Positions 23,765 through 32,987 of a DNA stretch of 35,181 nt are shown piece after piece (positions within the stretch are counted from its first letter, which is position 1; each line of letters opens with the position of its first letter). This DNA comes from Myxococcales bacterium (lineage in GTDB: Bacteria; Myxococcota_A; Polyangia; Polyangiales; Polyangiaceae), in the NCBI GenBank assembly GCA_023248745.1, contig JAHFDZ010000004.1, forward strand, positions 1 to 35,181, given 5' to 3'. The translations under genes and the position numbers were made by a program. The notes under the pieces are model-generated. The model was not told the origin of the DNA, did not search any database, and was given only the letters and a program-made list of their open reading frames with translations.

Positions 23765-24829
23765 TTAGCCAGCGATACGCGCCAAGAGCGCGTCAGCCGC
23801 TGCGCGTGTTCCTAATTCGCCGCCGACGTCGCGCGTGCATTGACGCGCTTCGAGTGCCTCGCCAATCGCCGTTTCGATCCGTGCTTCTTCGCCCTTGTAG
23901 CCGAGATGGTCAAGCAACATGCCGACCGTCAGAAACGCCGCGAACGGATTGGCGAGATCTTTGCCCGCGAGAGGTGGTGCCGAGCCGTGCACAGGCTCGA
24001 ACATCGCCACGCGGCCTGGGACGGACGCGTGCACATTGGCGCTACCTGCCATGCCCAAGCCACCCTGAAGCGCAGCACCAAGGTCGGTCACGATGTCGCC
24101 GAAAAGGTTATTCGTGACGATCACTTTGAACGGCGTGGGATCTTGCACAAGGTAGAAGCAGAGCGCATCGACATAAACGTGCTTGCCCGCAATTCCGGGA
24201 TAGCGCGTTGCAACTTCGGCGAACACGCGCTGCCAAAGTTCGTGTGCGTGCCGCATGGCGTTGGACTTGTCGGCCATGTGAACGACGTTGTGCCCGCTTG
24301 CCTTGGCGTACTCGAAAGCAGCAACGATGATGCGCTCGACACCTTTGCGCGTGTTGATGTCTTCGTTGATGGCGACTTCATCGACGGTGCCGCGCTTGAA
24401 CTGGCCGCCAATGTTGACGTAGATGCCCTCTGTATTTTCACGAAAGACAACAAAGTTGACGTCTTTTGCGCACCGATCTTTGAGCGGCACAAGCCGATCG
24501 GCGAGGGCGCGCACCGGTCGAATGTTGGCGTAAAGGTCGAGACCAAAACGAAGACCGAACAGAATGTCGCGCGCGTAGTCGAGCGACGGCACACGCGGAT
24601 CGCCAATCGCGCCGAGCAGCACGGCCGAGGCCTCATGTTCGATGCGATCGGCCACTTCTTTTGGATACGTTGTGCCATCGCGCAAGAAGCGATCGGCGCC
24701 GAGGTCAAGGTGCCAGAGGTCGAGATCGTAACCACGCTTGTTGCGATACCAGTCGAGCAAGCGGGTCGCTTGAAACACCACTTCAGGACCGATGCCATCA
24801 CCCGCAATGAGCGCGATCAACTTGGACAT
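23765..24829 (-). CDS. leuB: 3-isopropylmalate dehydrogenase-family protein
   Basis: A 354-residue beta-decarboxylating dehydrogenase. The family would oxidise 3-isopropylmalate in leucine synthesis, but tartrate or related malates are possible. Conserved residues are in place: R104 (NIRP), R130 (FRENTEG), Y137, K188 (ADKSNAM), D221, D245 and D249 (FGDIVTDL). The dinucleotide loop is H281-G-S-A-P-P286-L-A-G-K. The position after HGSAP is Asp in NAD-dependent LeuB and Lys in NADP isocitrate enzymes, but Pro here, so cofactor choice is unclear. I chose the ATG at 24829 because it begins SKLIALIAGDGIGPEV. It follows the HAD gene by 11 bases in one cluster with ald. No other leu genes are present. 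Confidence 0.85.
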   Translation of the reverse strand: MSKLIALIAGDGIGPEVVFQATRLLDWYRNKRGYDLDLWHLDLGADRFLRDGTTYPKEVADRIEHEASAVLLGAIGDPRVPSLDYARDILFGLRFGLDLYANIRPVRALADRLVPLKDRCAKDVNFVVFRENTEGIYVNIGGQFKRGTVDEVAINEDINTRKGVERIIVAAFEYAKASGHNVVHMADKSNAMRHAHELWQRVFAEVATRYPGIAGKHVYVDALCFYLVQDPTPFKVIVTNNLFGDIVTDLGAALQGGLGMAGSANVHASVPGRVAMFEPVHGSAPPLAGKDLANPFAAFLTVGMLLDHLGYKGEEARIETAIGEALEARQCTRDVGGELGTRAAADALLARIAG

Positions 24830-24840
24830 GGGCAACGAGA

Positions 24841-25590
24841 CTATCGATTCGCGAGCGCTTCGGCGACTGCTCGCGCAGATGGGACGCGCAAAACGTCTGA
24901 GTGCCTGCCCTGATACTGACCCAATGGGTCGACCAGCGCCGTGCGTACTCCCGCCGCACGGGCGCCGAGAATGTCGGTTGCAAACGTATCCCCGAGGTGA
25001 AGCGCCCGATCGGTCGTCCCGTTGCAAGCATCGAGCACCAGGCGAAAAAACGCAGGGTCCGGCTTCTCGACCCCCAGGGCACCGCTGTCGCCCAAGAAGT
25101 CGAAACAATCACGAATGCCGAGCGTGACAAAGAGCGGCTCGAGCATCCCCTCTGAATTGCTGACCAACGCCACGCGCACGCCCGTTTTCCGCAGCGCGTT
25201 CAAGGCCGCTGGCAGACCTATGGGCACCTTCGACCACAAGTTGAGACGGACGTGATCGGTCCAAATGAAATCGATCAGTGCGGGTAACGTATCGAGTGAT
25301 GCCCCCGCAACGTGCAGCATCGTGCCGACCATCTCCGCCCAAGCGCGCGCACCAGGAAGGTGCTTTCGTCGCCACGAAAACGTCGTCATCGTACGCGCTT
25401 CGAGGCGACGCTTCGCTTCGGCCTCCGCGAAGGCCAATGCATCGCCATCTAAGGTTGAAACACCATGGGCGGAGACCAACGCCGCAAGACGATGATGGTC
25501 AAGAAAGACGACGACCCCGCCCGCATCAAGGCAGAGAACGTCAACGTCTCTCAGCAACTCACCAGGAATCGCGGCAATGTCGTCCAGCAA
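24841..25590 (-). CDS. HAD-superfamily hydrolase-like protein
   Basis: 249 residues if started at TTG 25590, 2 bases after the ald stop. A second TTG at 25557 is possible and would put motif I near the N-terminus. Motif I is LCLD22-A-G24-G-V, where the second Asp of the usual DxD is Gly. Motif II is VSNS, motif III the Lys in GVEKPDPAFF, and motif IV LGDTFATD. A helical cap lies between I and II. The family includes phosphatases and dehalogenases, and loss of the acid/base Asp leaves the reaction uncertain. It is cytoplasmic, and translation is probably coupled to ald and leuB. Confidence 0.85.
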   Translation of the reverse strand: MLDDIAAIPGELLRDVDVLCLDAGGVVVFLDHHRLAALVSAHGVSTLDGDALAFAEAEAKRRLEARTMTTFSWRRKHLPGARAWAEMVGTMLHVAGASLDTLPALIDFIWTDHVRLNLWSKVPIGLPAALNALRKTGVRVALVSNSEGMLEPLFVTLGIRDCFDFLGDSGALGVEKPDPAFFRLVLDACNGTTDRALHLGDTFATDILGARAAGVRTALVDPLGQYQGRHSDVLRVPSARAVAEALANR

Positions 25591-25592
25591 AT

Positions 25593-26702
25593 TTACAATA
25601 CCTGCGAGAGCGGCGTGAACGCGAGCCCATGCGCGTGAGCGACAGGTTCGTACACGACGTGTCCGCCGTAGGTATTGAGGCCCTTGGCAAGAACGCGATC
25701 GGCGCGCGCAGCAGCCTCGAGCCCAAGGTCGGCGATGCGCAACGCGTAACCCATCGTCGTGTTGGTGAGCGCCCACGTGCTCGTTTGCGAAACGGCACCC
25801 GGCATGTTCGGCACGCAATAGTGCACGACGCCGTCGACTTCGTACGTCGGATGATCATGCGACGTAGGACGACACGTTTCGATGCAGCCACCTTGGTCGA
25901 CCGCAACGTCGACAATGACGCTGCCAGGCTGCATGCGCGAGACGAGTTCACGCGTGACAAGCCTTGGTGCCTTTGCGCCAGTGATGAGCACGGCGCCAAC
26001 CACGAGATCGGCGCGCGCCACGACCTCTTCGATATTGGTCAGGTTCGAGTAGAGCGTTTCGATCGCACCACCGAACACGTCCTCGAGATAGGCCATCGTG
26101 TCCGCACGCACGTCGAGCACGGTCACTTGCGCGCCCATACCAATCGCGATCGTCGCCGCGTTGCGACCCACAACGCCGCCTCCGAGGATGACGACACGAC
26201 CTCTTCGTGTGCCCGGCACACCACCAAGAAGAACGCCCTTTCCGCCACGCTCTTTCTCGAGACATGTGGCGCCGACTTGCACGGCCATACGTCCAGCGAC
26301 TTCGCTCATGGGGCGAAGAAGTGGCAATGTTCCGTCATCGTTCTCGATGGTCTCATAGGCAACGCCCTTGACCTTCGCGGCAGCGAGCGCGCGCGTGAGC
26401 TCTGGCTCCGCGGCGAGATGCAGGTAGGTGTAGAGCACGAGATTTTCGCGGAAGAAGCCGTATTCGCTGGTGAGCGGCTCCTTCACCTTAACGACCATGT
26501 CGCCGCTCCATGCATCCTGGGCCGCCGGCACTATTGTAGCACCTTGAGTTACATATTCCGCGTCGCGAATGCCGCTTCCCTCGCCGGCACTCTTTTCGAC
26601 GAGCACCTTGTGCCCGCGCGCGGTGAGGCTTCGCACACCCGCTGGGGTCATTCCGACGCGATACTCACGGGTCTTAATCTCTTTAGGCACACCGACGATC
26701 AC
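25593..26702 (-). CDS. ald: alanine dehydrogenase
   Basis: 369 residues. It interconverts L-alanine and pyruvate plus ammonia with NAD. Residues match the family throughout: [20 protein letters not shown] at the start, K74 (VKVKEPL), H95 ([11 protein letters not shown]), the nucleotide motif [20 protein letters not shown] and the [15 protein letters not shown] segment. It is cytoplasmic and usually hexameric. It starts at GTG 26702, with AAGGAG 6 bases upstream. It heads a three-gene minus-strand cluster with the HAD protein and leuB-like gene and diverges from pyrD across 161 bases. Confidence 0.97.
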
Positions 26703-26708
26703 GGCTCT

Positions 26709-26714
26709 CTCCTT
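26709..26714 (-). promoter_or_regulatory. Shine-Dalgarno site for ald
   Basis: AAGGAG on the minus strand, 6 bases before the GTG at 26702. It fixes this start. Confidence 0.7.
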
Positions 26715-26863
26715 CGTGCACAGCCCGCAAATGTGGGACGGCGCGGCGAGAGACTACAAGCTTCAGCACCGGCCACAAGAGAACACCGCGAGGTGACCCA
26801 CCTTGACGCATTGCGCGACTGCCTCTCGCCAATCATGAGAAACGTCGGCATGCTACGGCCTGC

Positions 26864-27898
26864 ATGTATCCTGTGTTTGCGTCGCTCCTCTTTCGATTGC
26901 CACCCCATTTGGCGCACAGTTTGGGCAGTGCCGCGATATCGATACTGGGAAAGTTACCTTTTCGAGCGCCGCTCAAACTTGATACGCCGCCAATCGAAAC
27001 GATGGGCCTGCAGTTCGCTCACCCAATTGGCCTTGCGGGTGGCTTCGACAAGAATGCGCGCCTGCCACATGCGCTCGCATCGCTTGGTTTCTCGTTCGTC
27101 GAGATGGGAACCGTTACGGCGCAGCCGCAATCGGAAAATCCTCGCCCCAATCTGTTTCGTTTGCCTGCCGATCGCGCGTTGATCAACCGGCTCGGCTTTC
27201 CAAACGACGGCGCCGAGGCCGTTGTGGATCGGTATCGCAAGGCAACCCATCAGCGACCGGTCGGCGTGCCTGTTGCTTTCTCGATCGGAAAGTCGCGAGC
27301 GGTGCCGATCGAAGACGTCGATAAAGTCATCGCCGACTATCGCGCAAGTCTGCGCGCGGTAGCTCCGATTTCCGATTTCGTCGTCGTGAACGTTTCGTCG
27401 CCCAATACGAACAATTTGAGGGCGCTCCAAGATGGTGATCGCGCACGCGAATTGCTCGCCGCGTTGCGCGACGAATTGGGCGACCGCGCGCTTCCGATGT
27501 TGGTCAAGGTTGCGCCCGACATGACACACGAGACCTTCGACGTACTGCTCGATCTCATCTCCGAGTTCAAACTCGCGGGTGTCGTAGCGTCCAACACTAC
27601 GGTGTCGCGAGCGAGCGTGATTCACACGCCGAAAGATGTGGTCGACGCCATCGGCCAAGGAGGTCTGAGCGGCCCGCCGCTCAAAGCGAAGGCCCTCCAG
27701 TTCGTCAAGTGGGCGCGCGCGTGCCTTGGCCCGAAGCCAACGATCATCGGCGTAGGCGGCATCGAAACGAAGGACGATGTTGCGCGTTTCCTCGATGCGG
27801 GTGCGAACCTGATTCAGATCTATACAAGTTTCATTTACGGGGGCCCTTCCCTGCCCAAGCGCCTCGCAAGAGAGTGGTCGCAGGCAAAGCAGACGTGA
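26864..27898 (+). CDS. pyrD: dihydroorotate dehydrogenase (quinone), class 2
   Basis: 344 residues, normal length for class 2 PyrD, which oxidises dihydroorotate to orotate with quinone at the inner membrane. The N-terminal MYPVFASLLFRLPPHLAHSL forms the membrane-contact helices. FMN and substrate motifs follow: GLAGGFDKNARLP, INRLGFPNDG and residues 176-182 NVSSPNT with the catalytic Ser. The late segments GGLSGPPLKAKAL, IIGVGGIETKDD and LIQIYTSFIYGGP complete the fold. No good ribosome site is seen. It is followed after 38 bases by a Cys-rich lipoprotein gene. Confidence 0.97.
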   Translation: MYPVFASLLFRLPPHLAHSLGSAAISILGKLPFRAPLKLDTPPIETMGLQFAHPIGLAGGFDKNARLPHALASLGFSFVEMGTVTAQPQSENPRPNLFRLPADRALINRLGFPNDGAEAVVDRYRKATHQRPVGVPVAFSIGKSRAVPIEDVDKVIADYRASLRAVAPISDFVVVNVSSPNTNNLRALQDGDRARELLAALRDELGDRALPMLVKVAPDMTHETFDVLLDLISEFKLAGVVASNTTVSRASVIHTPKDVVDAIGQGGLSGPPLKAKALQFVKWARACLGPKPTIIGVGGIETKDDVARFLDAGANLIQIYTSFIYGGPSLPKRLAREWSQAKQT

Positions 27899-27936
27899 GC
27901 CCTTTTCGCCTGAAGCCTGTTGTGGCACACAGTCTT

Positions 27937-28315: not shown

Positions 28316-31300
28316 CTATGGGCAGTATGCGAAGAAGCCGTCGTCGGGCGTAACGTCCGACGTGCCGCCAGGCAGACCGATGGGTGTGCTGTCACACGTG
28401 CGCGCGTTCCAATTGGGGAAGGTGCCGGCCGCAAGGTCGATGACCGCCCGCTTGACAAAGTTGGCGCCTCCGCGGGGAAAGCTGCTGCCGGTGCCGAAGT
28501 CGGCTCCTTCGGTTCCGCCCATCAGGGTGAGGACCGTTGGGTTGCCCACGATGTTGCGCGGAACCACGACGTAGAAGCGGTTGGCCGCCACGTTGTCGAA
28601 TACCGCGCCGCTGACTGCCGTCCACGCCGTGCCGTTCCACTGAACGACGCCGCGGCTCGCGTTGTTGCCATTGGTCCATACGACATACTTGACGGTGCCA
28701 AATCCGTGCGCCGCGCTTGAAGCGAGGCCCGTTCCGCCCGAAGGCAGTGAGATGGTCGGAAAGCCCGTCCCGCCCACAGCGGTGGGGTACGGCGCGGCAC
28801 CAGAAAGATAGAAGTAGCCGTACTCGTTTGCCGCATTCCACGCGTCGTCAACGTCGGCACCTGCGGGTGTCGACGCGATGCCGAGATAGAGATTCGCGGA
28901 ATCGAAGGCCAAGCGCCCGTTGACGGCGTCGCCCGAGACACCGTCGGCCCACTGATTCTGCGCGACGACGAATTCGCCTGCTGCACCACCGCCTGCGGAG
29001 CTCGTGATGGATCGCGAGTACGTTCCGATGCCCGTTGCCGCGTACGTTGCGGTCGCGTCGTCCATGCCGGCCTTGCACGCACGAATGAAGACGGTTCCGT
29101 CCATGGTCGCCCAAGAGCGCAATTCCGGATCCGCGTTTGAACCCGCAACGCGCGTATTGAGACAGTAGTAGCTCGCGCCCGCGACCGGAACGGTGCAGCC
29201 TGCAGGCGGCGACGTAACTTGCGAGAAGCACATCACGAGCGAAGTGTCCTGCGTGCGACCGGCATTCGGCGTGACCGTTATGTCGGCGTTTAGCTTGATA
29301 TCGCGACGCTTGTTGCCATTGGCGGCCACGTCCGTATTGGCAATGGTGTTGAGTGGCGAGACTGTGTAGGCGTACGACGCCGAATGCTCGGTCGACACGT
29401 TGATACTGAGCCCTTCGGAACAGGCAACCGCCCTGACAGTCAACGTACCTGACGTTGGGTTCGGCGAGACGAGCAGCGAAGGCGAGCCGCCCGCGGTGTT
29501 AATTGCGGCGCCGTTGAGGCAGCTCAGCGTTGCGCCCGAGAACGAACCGCATGACGGAGCCGTTCCGTCCGTAGTGTAGCAGATGCCGACGCCAGCCGTT
29601 GCCGCACCAGTTTCGGTTGTCGTACTCGCAATCGTGACGTCGAAGTAGTCGTGGTACTTACCGGCCGCGTTCTTGTTCGGGACGGCGAATGTACCTCGCG
29701 TTCCGAGGACGAACGTTGGCTGCGCAACCGCCGCGGTCGTGTACGTGACCGTGGCAATATCCGAATCGCTAAAGCCACTTGCGCACCCACGCACTTTGAC
29801 GACGCGTGGAACGCTTGTGACGTTCAGGGAAGTCGGTGATACACCGCAAACCGGATCGGTCGCCGTCGCGGCACCGTCAGTGAGTGCGTAGCTTGCGTAG
29901 GTTGGTGTGCCGGTTATTTGAATCGCATTGGCGCCAAGAACGCCGGGGTTGTTACCGGCGATGTTGTTCTGGAAGTTATTGCCGAATGGAAGTGTGGGCG
30001 CCGCGGGCAAGACTGGCGTGAAAACCTTGAAGGTGTACGTGGCGGTCGCAATCGGCGATTGCGGGTAGCCAGTCCGGCACGTGCGGGCTTTGACGACGCG
30101 TGGGTTGCCGCCAAAGTTGCTCGATTCGGTGACGCCTGCCTCAGCCGACAAGTCGAGCGACGTGCCCGTTGCGCAGACGTTGCTGCTTGCGCCGCATTCT
30201 GGATCGCTACCGTTGTCGGTCCAGCAGACGAAGTTGTTCGCGATGTCGCTACGTGAAAAGTACACCCTTGGTTGCTTGACGCTTCCGGCGGGTGCGGTAC
30301 CCCCGGGAGTGTCTGGCGAACGCACCGTGTCGAGCGCAGAGGCATACGTGCCAGACGCTGGAGAGATCGTGGGTGCCGTCAGCTGTCCTGGCGCCGAGTA
30401 GGTGATCGTTGTCACCGGCGAGTCTGCGTAGTCGGCGCGACAGTAAATCGCCTTGATGGTCGAGCCGGCGGCCGTATGGTTGATCGTGACGTTCGCAACA
30501 CCGCCGCCAACCGTCCCAAGAATGGTCGGCGCCGTCGCGGGGTCTCCGCATGTTGCCGGTACAGTGGGATCGGTTCCGTTAGTTGTGTAATACACACTTC
30601 CGTTCGCGAGGGTGTCTTGAACATTCTCGGGCGTCTTCCACATCTGAAGAGCGACCGCCAAAACCGAACTTAGCGGTTGCGCCGTGCCACTCGCAGGTGA
30701 CGCGCCACCCGCATTCGTGAAACTCCAAGTGCCCGTGATGAGATCGGAGTCTTCTGCGCCGGGTTTGCATACGATCGTTCGAAACACACGGTTCGACGAA
30801 TTGCCGGTGATGCCACCGCCAAAAGGAGCGCCGCCTGCGAATGGAAACACGTTGCCTGTCGCGCATCCGGTCTTGCTTGCTGAACACGATGGGATTGTTT
30901 GCGCGCCCACAACTGGACTTGCGCTGACGCAAATTTCGCCCGCCCCCACTGCGCCTAGGGTTGTTTGCTTGAAGGGTTGCGCAGCATCGCTTGGGTACAT
31001 CGGATCGCCACCGCTGGTGTTGATCGAATTGGTCACGACACCAAACGCGCGCCCGCCGACACTACCCACAAGGTCCATCACGGGTGGGCCCATCTTCGTC
31101 TTGAGATCCGTACTGAGAACGGCGCTCAAATTGTAACCCACCTTGCACGAACGCAACTTGTAGAAGGCGCTGCGACGCTGCCCGGTGGTGGTAACAGTGG
31201 CGTCGATTGCCTTCGCAAGGTTCCAAGGAAACGAACCGGCAGCAACAGAAAGCGTTCCGCTTCCTTGAGCGCACGTGCCGGCGACCGCAACGCCCGGATC

Positions 31301-32374
31301 GTTCGGCGTGCTGCCATCTGTGCTCATCGTGTAGAGAAGCACCGCATCGGGTGTTGTGACGTTCGCAAAGACCGTCGTGTCATAGGCAATCGTGCCGCTC
31401 GTCGTCACCGTCGGAAGTGAGGCACGGAATGTGTAGTCTGCAGACGTTATCGTCGAGTTCGTGCTGCCCGCCTTACAGGCAATCGCCTTGACGGTCTTGT
31501 TTCCATCGAAAACAGGCGGCGTCGTTGTGATGTATCGCGCCGAAGTGCCGTTGCACATCTGCGCAATTGGCAGCGTCGCATCGCACGAGGGAATGTTGCC
31601 ATCGATCGTGTAGCAAATTGTCGCGTCGACGGGTGATGTCGTCATCGTAATCGACTGCGATGCCGCGTACTCGCCTGCGGCCGGTGAGAACGAAGGCGCG
31701 CCGATCGTCCCAGCGAGATTGCTGATCTTATACGTCGCCTTCGCCTCGAGCGAATCTGACTTGTTGCTGACCTTCGCGATGGCAATGACGGTCGTGTCAA
31801 CGCTCACGACGAACGGCTTCGTGTAGACCGTGGCGAAGGGCGCTACGGGGAAGCTACCGTTCGTCGTAAAGAGCAGTGTCGCATTGGTCTCTGTCGTGCC
31901 GATGCTGACTTCTTGCGTCGAAGCGTACGTGCCGCTCGCAGGCGTGATCGTCGGCGTTGCCGCGCGCGGAGGCGGCGCTTCGATGGTGTACGTTGCAGAG
32001 TTGACGACCGATGGCTCGTAACCAGGGGCGATCGCAATTGCCCGAATGGTTGTCGTTGCACTTACGCTTATCGGCGCGCCGTATTGCTGCGAAGACTGGC
32101 TCGGCGTGTTTTCATCGAGCGTGTAGTAGATGGCCGCGCCGGTAGTCGCGCTCGCGAGCGAAACGGATTGTGCCGTCGTGTATGTATTGCCAGGCACGCT
32201 GAAGGTGGGCGTTGCGGTGCTCTGCTTCACATTTCCGTCACCGGTGGGGACGACGGCAGCTGCGTCTCCTGCATCGGCGAGCAAAACGCCACCATCGCTA
32301 CAGGCGGTGCTGGTCACTATTAGAACAGCAAAGAACGTGGGTACTCGCCACCGAAACGGCACACTTCGCGTCAT
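28316..32374 (-). CDS. giant lipoprotein with chitobiase C-terminal-like repeats
   Basis: 1352 residues from the ATG at 32374. GGGAGG lies 6 bases upstream of it but abuts the alternative ATG at 32380, so I chose 32374. Signal peptide and lipobox end at C25 (VTSTAC). From about 50 to 1120 there are roughly ten degenerate beta-sandwich repeats of 85-130 residues, most with an x-I-(Y/C)-Y-T-x-D-G-x-x-P core and a closing T-I-x-A-I-A-x-x-x-G segment. This is the pattern of the chitobiase/beta-hexosaminidase C-terminal domain (CHB_HEX_C, PF13290 type). The last 230 or so residues differ: GRLAFDSANLYLGIAST and DAWNAANEYGYFYLS suggest a carbohydrate-binding sandwich. Likely a surface protein for binding, with no catalytic domain visible. 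Confidence 0.85.
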   Translation of the reverse strand: MTRSVPFRWRVPTFFAVLIVTSTACSDGGVLLADAGDAAAVVPTGDGNVKQSTATPTFSVPGNTYTTAQSVSLASATTGAAIYYTLDENTPSQSSQQYGAPISVSATTTIRAIAIAPGYEPSVVNSATYTIEAPPPRAATPTITPASGTYASTQEVSIGTTETNATLLFTTNGSFPVAPFATVYTKPFVVSVDTTVIAIAKVSNKSDSLEAKATYKISNLAGTIGAPSFSPAAGEYAASQSITMTTSPVDATICYTIDGNIPSCDATLPIAQMCNGTSARYITTTPPVFDGNKTVKAIACKAGSTNSTITSADYTFRASLPTVTTSGTIAYDTTVFANVTTPDAVLLYTMSTDGSTPNDPGVAVAGTCAQGSGTLSVAAGSFPWNLAKAIDATVTTTGQRRSAFYKLRSCKVGYNLSAVLSTDLKTKMGPPVMDLVGSVGGRAFGVVTNSINTSGGDPMYPSDAAQPFKQTTLGAVGAGEICVSASPVVGAQTIPSCSASKTGCATGNVFPFAGGAPFGGGITGNSSNRVFRTIVCKPGAEDSDLITGTWSFTNAGGASPASGTAQPLSSVLAVALQMWKTPENVQDTLANGSVYYTTNGTDPTVPATCGDPATAPTILGTVGGGVANVTINHTAAGSTIKAIYCRADYADSPVTTITYSAPGQLTAPTISPASGTYASALDTVRSPDTPGGTAPAGSVKQPRVYFSRSDIANNFVCWTDNGSDPECGASSNVCATGTSLDLSAEAGVTESSNFGGNPRVVKARTCRTGYPQSPIATATYTFKVFTPVLPAAPTLPFGNNFQNNIAGNNPGVLGANAIQITGTPTYASYALTDGAATATDPVCGVSPTSLNVTSVPRVVKVRGCASGFSDSDIATVTYTTAAVAQPTFVLGTRGTFAVPNKNAAGKYHDYFDVTIASTTTETGAATAGVGICYTTDGTAPSCGSFSGATLSCLNGAAINTAGGSPSLLVSPNPTSGTLTVRAVACSEGLSINVSTEHSASYAYTVSPLNTIANTDVAANGNKRRDIKLNADITVTPNAGRTQDTSLVMCFSQVTSPPAGCTVPVAGASYYCLNTRVAGSNADPELRSWATMDGTVFIRACKAGMDDATATYAATGIGTYSRSITSSAGGGAAGEFVVAQNQWADGVSGDAVNGRLAFDSANLYLGIASTPAGADVDDAWNAANEYGYFYLSGAAPYPTAVGGTGFPTISLPSGGTGLASSAAHGFGTVKYVVWTNGNNASRGVVQWNGTAWTAVSGAVFDNVAANRFYVVVPRNIVGNPTVLTLMGGTEGADFGTGSSFPRGGANFVKRAVIDLAAGTFPNWNARTCDSTPIGLPGGTSDVTPDDGFFAYCP

Positions 32375-32380
32375 CGTCAT

Positions 32381-32386
32381 CCTCCC
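32381..32386 (-). promoter_or_regulatory. Shine-Dalgarno site deciding between two ATGs
   Basis: GGGAGG directly abuts the ATG at 32380 and is 6 bases from the ATG at 32374, which makes the second ATG the likelier start of the giant lipoprotein. Confidence 0.6.
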
Positions 32387-32515
32387 AAGTTACCCGCCGA
32401 ACCTCGAACGACTCCTTCAAGAAGGGTATCGCTTTCCACGCATCAAACACCACAAAATCGAGGTCGGGAATTCGTAACTTGTCGTATCTAGTTTCACACG
32501 ACCGCAAAAAACCCA

Positions 32516-32908
32516 ATACACCGTGAGCGAGAACGCATCGTCGATCGACGAGCGCGCAAGACGCGGAAAGAGCGCCACACCGAACAAGGCAACCAAACTG
32601 ACAATTGCAACTCCTGACGATCCAAGTGCTTGACCGTACAAATTCTTGACGAAAGCACGCGGCAAGTTCGCACCATGAAGCGCACCCGCCGCGACCGCGA
32701 GACCACCGACAGAGAGCGCATACGGATCGGCGAGCAAACTCAGTCCGCCGCGCAGTTCTCCGTCGCTCGCGATCGGAAGTCCACGCATTGCAAGACCGAC
32801 TGCGGCGCCCATCACGAAAAGAGCGAGCGCTGCGAACGAGGCGAACGAAACGTCCCAGTACGCGCGCCAGAGCGGAGACGGGTGCTTGCTCCGAAATTCG
32901 ATCGAAGA
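32516..32908 (-). pseudogene. internally deleted remnant of cytochrome bd oxidase subunit II (cydB)
   Basis: The open frame 32417-32938 encodes 173 residues. Residues 11-95 align by eye with the middle of CydB: SSIEFRSKHPSPLWRAYWD, a glycine-rich helix, RGLP, then LLADPYALSVGGL and LHGANL. These match E. coli CydB segments FDYRSK...WRNMWD and LLNPFGLLAG. Residues 98-141 match the C-terminal helix (LGSSGVAIVSLVALFGVALF, then SSIDDAFSLTVY). About 100 CydB residues between the blocks, the first 90 or so, and the final part are missing. The ends (MGCRRLFSDA, and after VY) are unrelated. No cydA is in the window. Subunit II lacking most helices should not work, so this is a decayed remnant. Confidence 0.75.
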
Positions 32909-32976
32909 GGCGTCAGAGAACAGCCGTCGGCAACCCATGCTAAAGGCACTCGAAACTTATTGGGCAGGTGTAGCCG

Positions 32977-32982
32977 AGGAGG
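32977..32982 (+). promoter_or_regulatory. Shine-Dalgarno site for the IgGFc-binding family gene
   Basis: AGGAGG, 5 bases before the ATG at 32988. It rules out the in-frame ATG at 32886. Confidence 0.7.
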
Positions 32983-32987
32983 ACGGG

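Follow-up and report, generated by a model that had tools for sequence, protein, structure and literature searches.

Between the divergent starts of two surface-protein genes in a Myxococcales bacterium lies an open reading frame of 173 codons (minus strand, 32417-32938) that resembles part of CydB, subunit II of cytochrome bd, and the question is whether this frame is a decaying gene or a shortened protein that is still in use. The initial annotation, made on the window (the whole stretch of 35,181 nucleotides that was analysed), proposed a decayed cydB, and this core reading is right, although its deletion count and its account of the 3' end are corrected here. With a probability of roughly 0.9, we consider the remnant to be a pseudogene and the last trace of a cydAB operon (cytochrome bd quinol oxidase) lost from the genus.

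Similarity of the open frame to CydB

The frame runs without an internal stop or frameshift, as the initial annotation had noted in calling it open through 173 codons. The Pfam profile for cytochrome bd subunit II (PF02322) matches it with 59.5 bits (E = 4.6e-16; cut-off 35.6) in two stretches, the better of which covers profile positions 95-173 of 302. A profile built on 54 full-length relatives, in which most of the 32 related loci of a GTDB-based collection served as full-length CydB, raises the score to 106 bits (E = 9.8e-32) and aligns collinearly with the remnant in two stretches (profile positions 109-192 and 259-309), so that the expected significant CydB match is borne out. The NCBIfam cydB model TIGR00203 scores 36.3 bits (E = 3.8e-9), under its cut-off of 117.3, as is expected for a fragment. 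Judged by sequence similarity, the minus-strand frame is a genuine CydB remnant. It belongs to the CydB family by its PF02322 score, but with 146 aligned residues it is not a full-length CydB (~340-380 residues, nine transmembrane helices), nor is it a functional CydB with cydA adjacent or present in the genome. These scores carry a warning for annotation: a frame that passes the PF02322 gathering score could be labelled CydB, and such a label would suggest a respiratory capacity that is absent from the organism.

Three blocks separated by two internal deletions

A multiple alignment with intact relatives, together with residue mapping onto a 339-residue CydB of the same family (L007), resolves the frame into three blocks, all on the minus strand. 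Residues 1-9 (MGCRRLFSD; 32912-32938) are foreign or beyond recognition. Block 1 (residues 10-90; 32669-32911) corresponds to CydB residues 97-177 in the TM4-TM5 region, block 2 (residues 91-139; 32522-32668) to CydB residues 244-292 in the TM8 region, and block 3 (residues 140-155; 32474-32521) to the native C-terminus of CydB (residues 324-339). Where CydB ends in the relatives, this frame has lost the stop and continues through 18 further codons to a new one (32417-32473). Compared with L007, for which hydropathy gives nine membrane helices, about 96 N-terminal residues are absent, and two in-frame internal deletions have removed 66 residues before block 2 and 31 before block 3 (97 together); helices 1-3, 6-7 and most of 9 are missing. 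Block 3 (VYWVFCGRVKLDTTS) scores 51.6 against native CydB C-termini. Of the 52,592 15-mers read from all six frames across the window, the runner-up reaches 25.5, and the match of block 3 is therefore not due to chance.

The extent of the loss had thus been well judged, since about 100 residues were thought to be missing between two CydB parts, but a single deletion of that size is ruled out because the native C-terminus makes a third block. Similarly, both ends had been taken as replaced by unrelated sequence; with the native C-terminus present as block 3, only the N-terminal side is replaced, and the C-terminal side is native up to the 18-codon read-through. The originally assigned interval of 32516-32908 spans blocks 1 and 2 and cuts off block 3. 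An ungapped reading through residue 146, taken from a BLAST match to another relative (L003), proved to be over-extended in light of the multiple alignment and the jump in the profile match from position 192 to 259.

Cytochrome bd genes in the genome, genus and family

The assembly (6.1 Mb, 459 contigs, draft, 95% complete) holds no cydB-like sequence besides the remnant, and therefore no second cydB that could serve as a functional copy. No match to cydA (PF01654) was found in the whole genome, supporting the proposed isolation of the remnant from any cydA, and sensitive profiles run on the rest of the window detected neither traces of cydA nor the cydB pieces that are missing. Both cydA and cydB are also absent from the genus's three other genomes. 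In the genus, this genome included, nothing reaches the cut-off for CydD, although general ABC transporters give many weaker matches. Genes for COX1-type heme-copper oxidases are present in the genome, and oxygen respiration presumably proceeds by heme-copper oxidases in this organism.

In the family, PF02322 scores over its cut-off in 58 of 108 genomes, and essentially the whole profile is covered in all of them but this one. The remnant is thus disrupted relative to intact homologues, and no equally short homologue turned up among the 108 family genomes, a finding which, with the three-block match, supports the proposal of a decayed cydB. Nor was the same short form recognised among the 32 related loci, from a search that returns close relatives only.

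A draft of 459 contigs could in principle hold a chimeric cydB produced by short-read strain variants or by the flanking multicopy repeats, the more so as both neighbouring genes belong to multicopy families, where misjoins happen. However, as the assembly has a single cydB-like sequence, there is no second copy to recombine with, two clean in-frame joins within a single-copy gene are unlike repeat misjoins, and the left part of the contig shares its gene order with a relative from the genus. We therefore regard an assembly artefact as highly improbable.

The locus and its neighbours

The remnant occupies a 607-bp gap (32381-32987) between the starts of two divergent genes. One encodes a surface protein of 1354 residues with CHB_HEX_C_1 / Fn3_assoc repeats (28316-32380, minus strand), and the other a lipoprotein-like protein of 588 residues with an IgGFc_binding domain (PF17517; 32988-34754, plus strand), which begins with a lipoprotein-like signal. 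The description of the neighbours as surface-protein genes holds, and both belong to expanded multicopy families, with 7 matches in the genome for the CHB_HEX_C_1 repeat protein and 12 for the IgGFc_binding protein. A tandem pair of IgGFc_binding lipoprotein-like genes is found on another contig (G000:C336:2408-6031). The CHB_HEX_C_1 repeat protein has paralogues that are broken in part, with in-frame stops in several partial copies (G000:C159:17873-19735; G003:C145:3636-5129), suggesting that gene decay may be common in that family.

One relative (G001) shares the gene order of the left part of the window and keeps DHODH, and a second (G002) shares the AlaDH-DHODH order. Past DHODH, the remnant and its surface-protein neighbours are absent from G001 and G002, the two relatives with readable gene order. 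These relatives differ past DHODH and offer no readable empty site, and the site is therefore variable, which agrees with part of the earlier view of it as a place of gene loss and insertion; an intact cydAB, sought at the same locus in related genomes, was found in none, which leaves an insertion of the neighbours into the ancestral cydAB locus unsupported. On one contig of a further relative (G028), a 10-kb stretch holds both Tex and cydAB, but other genes of the window are not shared there and we dismissed this linkage as chance or too weak. A scan of the gap for sigma-70 promoters and terminators found none, a result that says little for an organism of this kind, and the promoters of both neighbours probably lie in or beside the remnant. 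Elsewhere in the window, long open frames run antisense to the AlaDH, IDH and DHODH genes (25278-27182 and 23840-24913, plus strand; 26954-27928, minus strand); a Pfam scan of two of them gave no match, and these frames are probably by-products of codon bias.

Origin and rate of change

In a tree made on the retained columns, the remnant falls inside a clade consisting mostly of cydB from its own family and order (support 100/98), with G074 as its nearest neighbour (82/87). Its end branch is long (0.65 versus a median of 0.29). Tex, a conserved protein whose gene lies on the same contig, does not evolve fast in this genome, implying that the long branch belongs to the cydB remnant, although measured against G028, the nearest Tex relative, the acceleration is modest. 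The position in the tree fits vertical descent followed by loss, and so ties the remnant to the family's own cydB lineage. In the same tree, CydB sequences of Obscuribacterales/Cyanobacteriota bins (L077, L079, L080 and L085) nest among CydB of the order (L008 and L005; support 98/97), which suggests either transfer between phyla or binning errors.

Pseudogene or retained protein

The product of the remnant cannot be an oxidase subunit, since its cydA partner is absent and it has lost the conserved N-terminal region that carries the WDGNEVW motif. It might instead have taken on a new role as a shortened membrane protein; the product would then still be made, which would explain why two in-frame deletions were tolerated. 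The frame is open, both deletions are in frame (a 1 in 9 chance), and 29 of the 31 sites that do not vary among the 12 closest relatives are preserved. Openness weighs less than it may seem, as the frame drew notice because it is open, and when neutral drift from the remnant was simulated the chance of no stop arising was 0.56-0.14 at 0.1-0.4 amino-acid changes per codon; an open frame and preserved invariant sites are also expected if decay is recent. Moreover, the same short form is lacking from the family genomes and related loci, the 30 bases preceding the ATG contain no Shine-Dalgarno-like sequence, the branch is long and the native stop is lost. A new role for a shortened protein therefore appears very unlikely, and we give hardly any credence to the fuller proposal that the cell translates the three-block derivative and retains it as a miniature membrane protein whose function is not oxygen reduction.

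On the pseudogene reading, we infer that the remnant is no longer translated. The start of cydB and all of cydA would have been deleted, as would two internal segments of cydB, the first with transmembrane helices six and seven and the second with most of helix nine, and with the stop codon lost the frame reads through. The parts left over, from around TM4, TM5 and TM8 and from the C-terminal tail, cannot form an oxidase, and the DNA is now intergenic sequence between the divergent surface-protein genes.

Comparison with known systems

With CydB (PF02322; TIGR00203; structures 7d5i_B, 7nkz_B and 6rko_B) the remnant shares three collinear blocks of ~146 residues; its identity to CydB from its own family and order reaches 54%, and it retains the native C-terminal motif. 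Unlike CydB, it is without the ~96 N-terminal residues that include WDGNEVW, TM6-7, most of TM9, a native start and stop, and a cydA partner. Among the papers listed for cytochrome bd with CydB pseudogenes or with Myxococcota, no title or abstract opening reports such a remnant. It differs from bacterial pseudogenes formed by deletional decay in still being one open frame, free of internal stops and frameshifts. It otherwise resembles them, with a truncation, internal deletions, a lost stop, a long branch, and neither a partner gene nor an orthologue in the genus. The remnant is real but ordinary gene decay, and shows cytochrome bd being lost from a particular lineage at a point when its last trace has not yet vanished.
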